Positions 7,079 through 26,259 of a stretch of 33,690 bases of DNA are shown here, piece by piece (the first letter of the stretch is position 1; each line of letters begins with the position of its first letter). The notes below the pieces were generated by a model. That model did no database searches and had not been told where the DNA came from. It saw only the letters and a program-made list of their open reading frames with translations. The position numbers and the translations under genes are program-made. The DNA comes from Actinomycetota bacterium (GTDB lineage Bacteria; Actinomycetota; Acidimicrobiia; Acidimicrobiales; Ilumatobacteraceae): positions 1 to 33,690 of the forward strand of contig SXZT01000019.1 in NCBI GenBank assembly GCA_005787785.1, given 5' to 3'.

Positions 7079-7966
7079 GTGAATCCCCGGCACCTACGGG
7101 CTGTCGCGTTCTCTTCTTACTTCGTCGTATTCGTGTGGGCGGCGTTCGTATACGGCCTGCCCACCGATCGCATTGCCGTGCTGTCGTGGGTGCTCGGCGG
7201 ATTCGTGTGCGGTGCAATGGGCCGCCCGCGGCGTGACTGGTTCTTCATGGTGCGCGACTTTTCACTGTTCGTCGCCATGTGGTTCGCCTACGACTACTCG
7301 CGCGGAATGGCCGACCAGTTGGGTTTTCCCGTCAATCGCACACTCCCCCGCGACATCGACCGTCTGCTGTTCTTTGGCGCTGACCCGAACGTGTGGATGC
7401 AGCGGCACTTCTATGAGGCGGGTTCGGTGCGCTGGTACGACGTCGCCGGGTCACTCGTCTACTTCACCCACTTCTGCGTGCCGATGGGCCTTGCAATCGC
7501 CCTGTGGGCGCGCAACCGTGACCGCTGGATGCAGTACATCCGCCGCCTCGCCACCGTCTTGTTTCTCGGCGTCGCCACCTTCGTCGTCTTTCCCGCCGCA
7601 CCACCGTGGATGGTGGCAAAGGACGGCGGTATGGATGCAATCGCACGACCAACGGTGCGCGGCTGGACACACCTCGGCCTCGACACGGTGTCACGCGTCA
7701 TCGAACGCGGCCGCGAAGTGGTGAACCCGGTCGCCGCGGTTCCCAGCCTGCACGTCGCGTTTTCGCTGATCGTCGTCTTGTTCTTCGCCAAACAGATGCC
7801 GAAGTGGCTGCGGCCGATCATCGTGTTGTTCCCCGCATCGATGATGCTGACGCTTGTCTATTTCGGCGAACACTTCGTCTTTGACGGAATTCTCGGTGTC
7901 GCGTACGTGCTCATCGCGTTCCGCTTCTGGTCCCGCTACGAAACCCGAAAAGGGATCTCGGTGTGA
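7079..7966 (+). CDS. PAP2-superfamily membrane phosphatase/phosphotransferase (AUR1/inositolphosphotransferase-like)
   Basis: A 295-residue multi-pass membrane protein with about six hydrophobic segments. The PAP2 motifs are visible: P-S-L-H at 222-225 (catalytic base region) and H265-x3-D269 in GEHFVFDG. The AAPPW stretch at 173-177 is typical of the AUR1-like, inositolphosphotransferase branch rather than of soluble acid phosphatases. It would act on a phospholipid or polyprenyl phosphate head group at the membrane. It starts with GTG 23 bases after coxM, so it may be co-transcribed, but no known CO-dehydrogenase role exists. The stop codon lies inside the left arm of the inverted repeat at 7956-8006. 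Confidence 0.8.
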   Translation: MNPRHLRAVAFSSYFVVFVWAAFVYGLPTDRIAVLSWVLGGFVCGAMGRPRRDWFFMVRDFSLFVAMWFAYDYSRGMADQLGFPVNRTLPRDIDRLLFFGADPNVWMQRHFYEAGSVRWYDVAGSLVYFTHFCVPMGLAIALWARNRDRWMQYIRRLATVLFLGVATFVVFPAAPPWMVAKDGGMDAIARPTVRGWTHLGLDTVSRVIERGREVVNPVAAVPSLHVAFSLIVVLFFAKQMPKWLRPIIVLFPASMMLTLVYFGEHFVFDGILGVAYVLIAFRFWSRYETRKGISV

Positions 7967-8006
7967 AATTACCCGCTTTTTGCAACACGGCACACCGAGA
8001 AGTGAA
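7956..8006 (+). repeat. Left arm of a 51-bp inverted repeat flanking the Dabb gene
   Basis: This arm matches the reverse complement of 8334-8384 at 47 of 51 positions: 33 identical bases, four mismatches, then 14 identical bases. The arm is also a stem in itself, since 7956-7965 (TCTCGGTGTG) pairs perfectly with 7991-8000 (CACACCGAGA). It sits between two convergent gene ends, so it could act as a bidirectional terminator. Confidence 0.9.
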
Positions 8007-8018
8007 ACATTGGAGCGC

Positions 8019-8321
8019 CTAGTTCACGCTGAATTGAACGCTCGCCCGCTCCGCAATGCGCGGGGCCAACGACTCGTCGCGCACCGCCTCGTGAGCCGGG
8101 TGTGAGAGGTATTCGCGCCACCCCGCTTCGTCATCAAATTGAGCAGAGATCGCGAAATCCCAACTTACGCCCGGCTGACCAAGACCAAGGTCCCGGCCAA
8201 ACTTGTATGAACGAATCGACGGAACCTTGCCGGGCAGAGTGCCAAGCGCAGTAGCCATCTCATCGACATGCGAAGTCGTAGTGCCGGGTTTCCACTTGAA
8301 GAAAACGTTATGAACAAACAT
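8019..8321 (-). CDS. Dabb (stress-responsive A/B barrel) domain protein
   Basis: A 100-residue single-domain protein. It opens MFVHNVFFKWKPG, the typical first beta strand of Dabb proteins, and has the conserved F-G-R-D-L-G and W-R-E-Y-L-S-H-P-A-H-E parts; the histidine-rich end of the second helix is characteristic. These small dimeric barrels are related to plant stress proteins and olivetolic acid cyclase-like enzymes; the specific role here is unknown. The ATG at 8321 is preferred over the one at 8330 because GAAGGG, which is partly in the right repeat arm, is correctly spaced only for 8321. It lies downstream of the SDR gene on the same strand and between the two repeat arms. Confidence 0.82.
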   Translation of the reverse strand: MFVHNVFFKWKPGTTTSHVDEMATALGTLPGKVPSIRSYKFGRDLGLGQPGVSWDFAISAQFDDEAGWREYLSHPAHEAVRDESLAPRIAERASVQFSVN

Positions 8322-8333
8322 GGACGTCATCCC

Positions 8334-8384
8334 TTCACTTCTCGGTGCATGGTGTTGCAAAAAGCGGGTAATTTCACACCGAGA
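8334..8384 (-). repeat. Right arm of the 51-bp inverted repeat flanking the Dabb gene
   Basis: Reverse-complement partner of 7956-8006. It begins immediately below the SDR stop codon (8389-8391) and its far end supplies the purine stretch before the Dabb start. Its own inner stem pairs TTCTCGGTG (8339-8347) with CACCGAGAA (8377-8385). Confidence 0.9.
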
Positions 8385-8388
8385 ACCC

Positions 8389-9135
8389 TTATTGGAGGCC
8401 GGCGTATTGGCCGCCGTCCACGTTCAGGTGTGCGCCGGTGATGTACTTCGCCTGCTCGCTGGCAAAGAACGCGCAGATCTCGCCGAAGTCGGCCGGGTCG
8501 CCGATGAAACCGGCGGGAATCCCGAAGGCCTGTGCCGAGAGCGTATTGCCCGATACATCCCTGATCCGGTCGGTGAGATGGATGCCCGGCTGCACCGAAT
8601 TCACCGTCACTCCTTCGCTTGCCACGTCGCGGGCGAGTGACTTGAGGTAACCCGTCACACCGGCGCGTGCGGTGTTCGAGAGCGCGAGCGTGGCGATCGG
8701 CTGCTTGACCGACACTGAAGTGATCGCGACGATACGACCCCACTTCTGGGCGCGCATGTGCGGCAATGCAACCTGGCACATTCCGATCACCGACAAGAGA
8801 CTCAGTTCGAGCGCGGCTGGATACTTGTCGATCGGTGTGTCAAGAGCGGTCCCGGGCGGCGGCCCGCCGCCATTCGTCACCAGAATGTCGACGCCACCCA
8901 GGGCATCGATTGCCTTCTGCACGAAAGCCATCGCTGTCTCATGTGTCGCAACGTCATGTCGTATACCGACGCATCCATGGCGAACGATTTCGATTGCGTG
9001 CTGTAAACGCTGTTCGTCGCGACCGCAGATCACCACTTTTGCACCGTTGCGTGCAAGGCTGGCAGCCGTCGCAAGACCCAATCCCGCGGTGCCTGCAGCG
9101 ACAACCGCTCTTTTCCCCGAGATACCAAGATCCAT
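8389..9135 (-). CDS. Short-chain dehydrogenase/reductase family protein lacking the Tyr-Lys pair
   Basis: A 248-residue Rossmann-fold protein of classical SDR length. The nucleotide-binding glycine motif is AGTAGLG (14-20), and the usual NNAG is TNGGGPPPG (87-95). The catalytic serine is S140. The expected Y-x3-K is replaced by S153-N-T-A-R157. This S/R form occurs in an SDR subgroup often annotated as 3-oxoacyl-ACP reductase-like, so reductase chemistry should not be assumed. The C-terminal N-V-D-G-G motif is intact. It starts at an ATG six bases after a TAAGGT hexamer, suggesting a leaderless transcript that continues into the Dabb gene. Confidence 0.85.
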   Translation of the reverse strand: MDLGISGKRAVVAAGTAGLGLATAASLARNGAKVVICGRDEQRLQHAIEIVRHGCVGIRHDVATHETAMAFVQKAIDALGGVDILVTNGGGPPPGTALDTPIDKYPAALELSLLSVIGMCQVALPHMRAQKWGRIVAITSVSVKQPIATLALSNTARAGVTGYLKSLARDVASEGVTVNSVQPGIHLTDRIRDVSGNTLSAQAFGIPAGFIGDPADFGEICAFFASEQAKYITGAHLNVDGGQYAGLQ

Positions 9136-25671: not shown

Positions 25672-25884
25672 GCGCTAGCAACCCATCCGCAAACAACCAT
25701 CGCACGGGCCGCCACGCCAACGACCAGACCCACAGCAATGTCGGGAGCGACCCCATTGACTCCAACGACATCCAAGGTGACCGTGCTGCAGATCACGACC
25801 CCGCAGACGGACGCCAAAACGCCAACACCGACAACCATCAGGAAGTGGCGCTGCGCTCGGCTTTACTTTGCGCTGCGCTCGGCT
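25672..25884. other. 213-bp gap between convergent TetR and queF genes
   Basis: No convincing gene. A reverse-strand open frame from an ATG at 25838 begins with about 55 hydrophobic residues (two possible membrane segments), but it lacks a ribosome binding site and runs far into the antisense of the TetR gene. The right end holds the tandem repeat at 25848-25907. No terminator hairpin with a T-run is seen. Confidence 0.5.
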
Positions 25885-25907
25885 TTACTTTGCGCTGCGC
25901 TCGGCTT
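25848..25907 (-). repeat. 22-bp tandem repeat (2.7 copies) at the queF 3' end
   Basis: Copies begin at 25848, 25870 and 25892 (the last partial, 16 bases), each GCGCTGCGCTCGGCTTTACT plus two bases. Read on the reverse strand each unit encodes A-E-R-S-A-K-stop in a different frame; the copy around 25885 is the real end of queF. Confidence 0.9.
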
Positions 25908-26259
25908 CGGCATGCACTTCGATGCCGCCGCGGGGGCGTTGCGTCAGCGACACCTTCACGTGATGGGGCTTGACGGTCGTCATCACTTCATCGGCAATCT
26001 CGGCGGCCAGCGCCTCGGCGAACACCGCCATGTCGCGGAAACGCCACAGGTACAACTTCAACGACTTCGACTCGATGCACCACTCACGCGGCAAGTACTC
26101 GATGACGACTGTTGCAACATCGGGCTGCTGGGTGACCGGGCACACCGACGACAGCTCATCGGTGGTGAAACGCACCTTCGTCACGTGCGCAGGCGCGGGA
26201 AACACCTCGACGTGGTCGATGGGATGACGAACGGTCCGGCCGAGAACGGTGAGTTCCAT
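25885..26259 (-). CDS. queF: NADPH-dependent preQ0 reductase QueF, short (type I) form, His position altered
   Basis: A 124-residue unimodular QueF. This enzyme reduces the nitrile of 7-cyano-7-deazaguanine to the amine preQ1 in queuosine synthesis. The nucleophile is C40 (S-V-C-P-V-T-Q-Q-P-D), with D47 as proton donor and the family motif E-S-K-S-L-K-L-Y-L at 63-71. In Bacillus QueF the motif F-H-E supplies a histidine and a glutamate; here it reads F-A-E (80-82), so the Glu is kept but the His is Ala. Usual G in C-P-x-T-G is Q44. The C-terminal codons are in a tandem repeat. Start lies seven bases after TAGCCT. Confidence 0.88.
   Translation of the reverse strand: MELTVLGRTVRHPIDHVEVFPAPAHVTKVRFTTDELSSVCPVTQQPDVATVVIEYLPREWCIESKSLKLYLWRFRDMAVFAEALAAEIADEVMTTVKPHHVKVSLTQRPRGGIEVHAEAERSAK

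Follow-up and report, generated by a model that had tools for sequence, protein, structure and literature searches.

The window analysed here is a 33,690-nt stretch of DNA from an Actinomycetota bacterium of the family Ilumatobacteraceae (contig SXZT01000019.1 of assembly GCA_005787785.1). It contains an inverted repeat enclosing a short Dabb gene between a PAP2-family gene and an SDR gene (Table 1). Direct reading of both arms bore out the original prediction of a 51-bp inverted repeat around this gene: positions 7956-8006 and 8334-8384 are inverted copies that are identical at 47 of 51 positions, and the inverted match lengthens to 62 nt (7945-8006 and 8334-8395) at 89% identity. The four mismatches are contiguous, as had been described, but their place is within each arm's inner half, off the exact centre. 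The gene ends were also placed correctly: the left arm contains the PAP2 stop codon (TGA, 7964-7966), and the tag of the right arm touches the SDR stop codon.

Table 1. Positions of the hairpins, their tags and the neighbouring genes in the window
Feature	Position	Strand	Remarks
PAP2-family gene	7079-7966	+	Name from first reading of the letters; 3' end carries left hairpin
AGGG tag outside left hairpin	7951-7954	+	AG(G/T)G outer-side tag of 111 asymmetric copies
Left 47-nt hairpin	7955-8001	+	Half A 7955-7975, spacer 7976-7980, half B 7981-8001; overlaps PAP2 stop
Enclosed Dabb domain protein gene, 100 aa	8019-8321	-	Pfam Dabb, E 3.1e-17; resident, not cargo
Right 47-nt hairpin	8339-8385	-	Half A 8365-8385, spacer 8360-8364, half B 8339-8359
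AGGG tag outside right hairpin	8386-8389	-	Touches SDR stop codon
SDR gene	8389-9135	-	Name from first reading of the letters; upstream of Dabb, same strand

The 23-base core of the arms occurs twice in the window and in none of 100 shuffles, even with 3 mismatches allowed. When 13 window genes were scored for flanking inverted repeats, Dabb reached 44.5 and the other twelve 9.0 to 12.5. Folded as a hairpin, each arm forms an outer stem of 9-10 bp, the same self-complementary end that had been predicted; equally good folds arose in 5, 3, 2 and 35 of 200 shuffles for the four arm strands. The natural repeat unit at each arm is 47 nt long. Nothing in Rfam matched positions 7700-8700 at E values up to 1. 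An uptake-sequence-like repeat was rejected: taken by itself, the 10-bp end occurs 8 times in the window where 3.5 are expected, a mild enrichment only. Elsewhere in the window, positions 25848-25913 hold three tandem 22-nt units (GCGCTGCGCTCGGCTTTACTTT), the third of them diverged.

Among the readings first offered for the arms was a REP-like dispersed element used twice, to be checked by a genome-wide search for the core, and this proved right in kind. The window's own genome (G000), a MAG of 1.87 Mb in 162 contigs that is 78% complete, has 10 matches to the window subtype at E<=0.01, and two congeners have 17 and 22. A general pattern (GGGTTCTCGG, 33 free bases and CCGAGAA, with at most 2 mismatches) gave 6-24 matches per strand in each of the 13 genus genomes, compared with 0-2 for the reversed pattern used as a control. 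Across 150 genomes of the family, nearly all of them MAGs like the other genomes compared, the exact pattern occurs in 24 (all 13 of the genus and 11 of 137 others; control 0-1). Outside the genus, G068 carries 82 copies and G102 carries 17. Most G068 copies stand in tandem doublets, whose spacer measures exactly 16 bases and varies in sequence from place to place (L213-L232). On virus contigs, a half-site pattern gave five matches, all lacking the second half, and carriage of the repeat by viruses or plasmids was set aside as a reading.

We read the copies in detail in seven of the 13 genus genomes, picked for having copies, and counted 142 of 147 matches, dropping five by eye as chance matches in coding sequence. 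The unit measures exactly 47 nt and consists of two 21-nt half-sites, inverted relative to each other, with 5 mostly A/T bases between them; outer half A and inner half B differ in sequence. A/A' palindromes are also present, as is one B/B' palindrome. Outside half A, nearly all of the 111 asymmetric copies carry the tag AG(G/T)G (A in 101, G in 109, G or T in 104 and G in 100), while their B side has no such tag and no T-run. Conservation extends to the outer stem: its positions 2-9 pair in 71-100% of these copies, and C-G/T-A exchange at pair 8/40 leaves 0.86 paired versus 0.50 when shuffled. Because covariation in the inner stem did not exceed shuffles except at pair 8/40 and, weakly, 10/38, we claim only the outer stem.

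These hairpins begin a few bases past stop codons. With genes called by a simple codon-usage caller, the 111 oriented copies turn half A towards the end of a gene (68 copies), the start of one (37) or no called gene (6). In G068, 12 of 23 copy groups lie between convergent genes and none between divergent genes, against a background of 46 and 46 of 270 gene pairs (groups from 20 fetched stretches, with genes from the same caller). Placement just behind stop codons and a kept outer stem with exchange at pair 8/40 are what one would expect of bidirectional terminators or mRNA 3'-end stabilisers that are alike through duplication, and matching terminators had been among the first readings. However, the window hairpins differ from intrinsic terminators in having no T-run after the stem at either arm, as on the B side of the 111 copies. 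Moreover, tag-out polarity ignores gene direction, with A toward a gene start and B toward a gene end in 24 of 111 oriented copies, and the stem sequence itself, beyond its pairing, is uniform within a genome. We therefore regard termination or stabilisation as a very unlikely main explanation, although the hairpins may have an effect on transcription at these gene 3' ends.

Neighbouring copies form brackets with the tags outside. Among 45 neighbouring pairs at most 3.5 kb apart in the seven genomes, 38 have half A outside on both copies ('+-') and none has A inside on both ('-+'); the rest are three '++', one '--' and three with a palindrome or an undecided copy. Since the A/B type lists had been typed after looking at the pairs, orientation was repeated with the tag alone, which gave 25 '+-', no '-+', three '++', one '--' and 16 pairs not oriented or palindromic. 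Copies at orthologous sites are not independent, and the 25 tag-only '+-' pairs represent 13 distinct loci. Such brackets span from 36 nt without a gene up to about 2.6 kb with several genes, and the genes enclosed include Dabb, EamA, PhyH, SMP-30, nitroreductase plus enoyl-CoA hydratase, aldehyde dehydrogenase (ALDH) and AbiEi-DUF559. One bracket in G002 (L124, G002:C27, 1827-2471) holds a 214-aa gene with no Pfam match, whose neighbours are parted by one hairpin alone in G004 and G012. G068 also has a different, perfect 55-nt palindrome pair (L215, G068:C5, 11646-11700 and 13580-13634) around a sigma-factor-like gene and the next gene, of 438 aa.

The Dabb gene is kept with or without its bracket. 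PAP2 was found in all 13 genus genomes, and the left hairpin is present at its end in 10 of the 12 where this site is visible (absent from G007 and G009; cut off in G001). The right hairpin lies between SDR and Dabb in four of ten genomes examined (G000, G002, G010 and G011) and is absent from G003, G004, G005, G006, G007 and G012; Dabb is kept in all ten. G004 and G006 have a wider bracket, in which the left hairpin is partnered by a copy beyond SDR and the FAD oxidoreductase. At two loci in a more distant relative, from another genus (PAP2 identity 42%), Dabb still neighbours SDR. The PAP2-Dabb-SDR order thus persists in the absence of an arm, which removes the suggestion of a small mobile cassette at this locus: Dabb is a resident bystander enclosed by two copies and, unlike a cassette gene, is present without arms in relatives. 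Nor was an inversion of any enclosed gene seen where orthologous brackets were compared, a rearrangement that the original prediction had asked about. The empty sites already carry the tag (AAGGG at the PAP2 end in G007 and G009, where no clear target duplication of the kind left by a MITE or a transposon with terminal inverted repeats was seen, and TAAGGA at the SDR end), so that the tag looks like target rather than insert.

We also considered whether brackets elsewhere might travel with their genes as mobile cassettes. The ALDH locus speaks for this: the order in G011 is acyltransferase, hairpin, ALDH, hairpin, acyl-CoA dehydrogenase (L106, G011:C10, 1535-3028; the counterpart site in G000 is at L096, G000:C133, 1506), while in G010 ALDH lies beside a palindrome and it is absent from G000 and from all six other-lineage genomes seen there. 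However, the G000 site keeps a decayed outer half next to a new palindrome, which resembles a deletion and not a clean excision, and Dabb and EamA remain in place where an arm is missing. Travelling cassettes are thus extremely improbable. The same locus had first seemed to be a pair of empty (A/A') and filled (A-B..B'-A') sites of site-specific integration into a palindrome centre. That mechanism was rejected, as a decayed remnant of the old right arm's outer half persists in G000 some 30-odd bases off, and A/A' palindromes also occur with the gene present (G006 at PhyH).

Comparison of the copies between genomes revealed three sequence types: group 1, the window type (G000, G002 and G010), group 2 (G004, G006 and G012, together with the remaining genus genomes as judged by their listed sequences) and group 3 (G011). 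Different groups have 16 sites in common. We measured A-half identity as agreement at the variable bases of that half. Copies at different sites of the same genome agree at 0.73 (1417 pairs), compared with 0.435 at the same site in different lineages (59 pairs) and 0.425 where both site and lineage differ (5573 pairs). For the B half the corresponding values are 0.610, 0.483 and 0.494. Given 0.73 within a genome versus 0.435 at one site across lineages, the copies show concerted evolution: hairpin sequence tracks the genome, not the site. At most shared sites, polarity is nevertheless equal in all genomes despite the replaced sequence. Decayed group 3 relics persist in group 1 genomes, and at one site (G002:C73) an older, group 3 copy has a newer, group 1 copy of the same polarity 8 nt after it. 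This pattern fits waves of new copies written into or beside old ones.

One bracket common to several genus genomes holds an AbiEi-DUF559 protein gene, and in G068 a different palindrome pair, with a hairpin sequence unlike that genome's main family, encloses an AbiEi protein; the DUF559 family (PF04480) was therefore used as a query. It matched 29 of 101 family genomes, 26 of them with a single match (G006 and G010 were not drawn in this search, and the gene is present in their fetched loci). Thirty DUF559 loci were fetched, 28 of which had enough flank on both sides. Inverted flank repeats scoring at least 16 occur at 18 of these 28 loci, in 8 genera, whereas in a null of 150 mismatched flank pairs, with a 95th percentile of 12.8, 3 did so; this null includes same-genus pairs, the presumed source of its few high scores. 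Among 112 control genes of similar length, taken regardless of repeats from G068 stretches picked for holding hairpins, only one reached 16, and it is itself an AbiEi gene. The other 10 DUF559 loci have no flanking repeat above threshold, some of which is explained by one-sided hairpins or contig ends (L239, L251 and L260). Many of the flanks are 47-nt hairpins of the TTCT..AGAA kind, with a lineage-specific sequence, and those in G000-type, group 2, G068 and G102 genomes match the dispersed copies in type.

The state of the gene and that of the repeat also go together in one genome. In the window's own genome the DUF559 gene (299 aa, G000:C132) is intact and has flanks of decayed group 1 type, while the matching bracket in G011 holds only DUF559 fragments, a pseudogene. 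The G011 hairpins are the most degraded, with 1.47 mismatches in the 14 end bases versus 0.19-0.68 in the six other genomes, and perfect ends in 1 of 19 copies versus 83 of 123. In G007 and G012 hairpins are well preserved, yet no DUF559 was found at E<=1e-6 in these incomplete MAGs (78% and 89%). Position and the parallel decay in G011 together show a strong statistical tie between this family-wide hairpin repeat and the endonuclease gene.

All 12 aligned proteins match DUF559 and REase_MTES_1575, and all four scanned proteins match PADLOC AbiEi profiles. Their alignment has invariant E, D and E-x-D-G residues, which resemble a PD-(D/E)XK site. Against solved structures, the profile matched 3hrl (endonuclease-like, E 1.8e-12) and 3r3p (a mobile intron protein, E 0.0068), and Vsr (1cw0 and 1vsr) weakly. 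Relatives of the nuclease part are encoded on 11 virus contigs; the protein query found no plasmid record, and our search of the open-access literature brought up no publication that connects DUF559 or AbiEi-DUF559 to repeats of this kind.

Taken together, these data lead us to favour, by a modest margin over doubt, the reading that both arms in the window belong to a dispersed family of tagged 47-nt hairpins whose cognate enzyme is probably AbiEi-DUF559; the association of gene and hairpins is shown, the activity inferred. Related hairpins around a gene for a DNA-cutting enzyme hint at a little-known kind of self-spreading repeat. AbiEi is described as binding two 23-bp inverted repeats 3 bp apart (PMC7319586), a centre-to-centre distance of 26 bp that is the same as the 21 + 5 of the hairpin, and the homing endonuclease I-Bth0305I as dimerising on a target of nearly 60 bp (PMC3943268). 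From this geometry and this dimer target, binding of the 47-bp hairpin by two AbiEi-DUF559 molecules together is a natural guess. The AbiEi part would bind the two 21-nt half-sites as a pair and the Vsr-like part would cut at the hairpin. Repair from another copy, in a homing-like conversion, would then write the current hairpin type into the cut site or beside it. Such cut-and-repair would overwrite sites in place with their polarity kept, and would allow REP-like spread without a RAYT transposase.

More tentatively, and as a proposal we think could well be wrong, a Vsr-like endonuclease with an AbiEi DNA-binding half, and not a transposase, may recognise and overwrite the dispersed hairpins, such that the copies of one genome would all change in step, at unchanged positions and with unchanged polarity; the AbiEi-DUF559 genes would be the selfish core. 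Overwriting one hairpin at a time leaves without explanation why pairs always stand tag-out around resident genes; either the bracket would be the unit copied, or it would have a host function.

The conserved positions and polarity between lineages would also be expected if the hairpins were binding sites of an AbiEi-type regulator, its own operator plus a regulon, that do not spread and are all dragged along by a change in specificity. AbiEi antitoxins are reported to autoregulate through just such paired repeats, with the hairpin's centre distance (PMC7319586). We consider this unlikely, as copies lie mostly at gene 3' ends (with no divergent group in G068), DUF559 genes have copies on both sides, and older and newer types stand side by side at one site. 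If the enzyme link holds, it would give a function to AbiEi-DUF559, a common orphan protein family whose genes have so far been read as orphan antitoxins or unknowns. It would also show that REP-like repeats can arise by a second enzymatic route, and would offer a natural example of dispersed sites evolving in concert, directly testable with one protein and a 47-bp DNA.

The nearest described kind is REP/REPIN-RAYT. Both systems consist of short, tagged, imperfect hairpins that are dispersed, extragenic and 3'-biased, form frequent inverted dimers with the tags outside, are uniform within a genome and flank a mostly single-copy enzyme gene. The published descriptions of these REP traits (PMC3733652, PMC3116915) raise the possibility that the present hairpins are REP/REPIN elements moved by a missed RAYT, an HUH Y1 transposase. 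This is quite improbable: no Y1_Tnp match was found in seven of seven genus genomes, while the control was positive in 5 of 14, the tag is AG(G/T)G and not GTAG or CGTC, and the flanked gene is DUF559, a Vsr-like enzyme; a RAYT was thus rejected as the mover. The repeats differ further in having a fixed 47-nt, 21-5-21 layout compared with 20-40 bp for REPs, and in forming pairs that, unlike REPINs, may enclose whole genes. By the tests made, the hairpin family works like REP/REPIN-RAYT but is not a member. CGTC-tagged REPs, which according to their authors apparently have no dedicated transposase (PMC3733652), are likewise tagged palindromes with HH dimers, but have another tag and other host groups, while here there is a candidate enzyme. 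Operators of AbiEi antitoxins share the AbiEi-type domain and the paired inverted half-sites 26 bp centre to centre; here, however, AbiEi is fused to a nuclease, and the sites flank the gene on either side and recur, dispersed, at 3' ends. Finally, EDxHD homing endonucleases such as I-Bth0305I belong to the same nuclease superfamily by profile and have a long dimeric target, as we infer here, whereas AbiEi-DUF559 is not intron-borne, has an AbiEi-type N-terminal half and has a dispersed hairpin as its putative target. As in a homing endonuclease system, the nuclease gene sits at its own putative target, with DUF559 flanked by the very hairpins that it would recognise.
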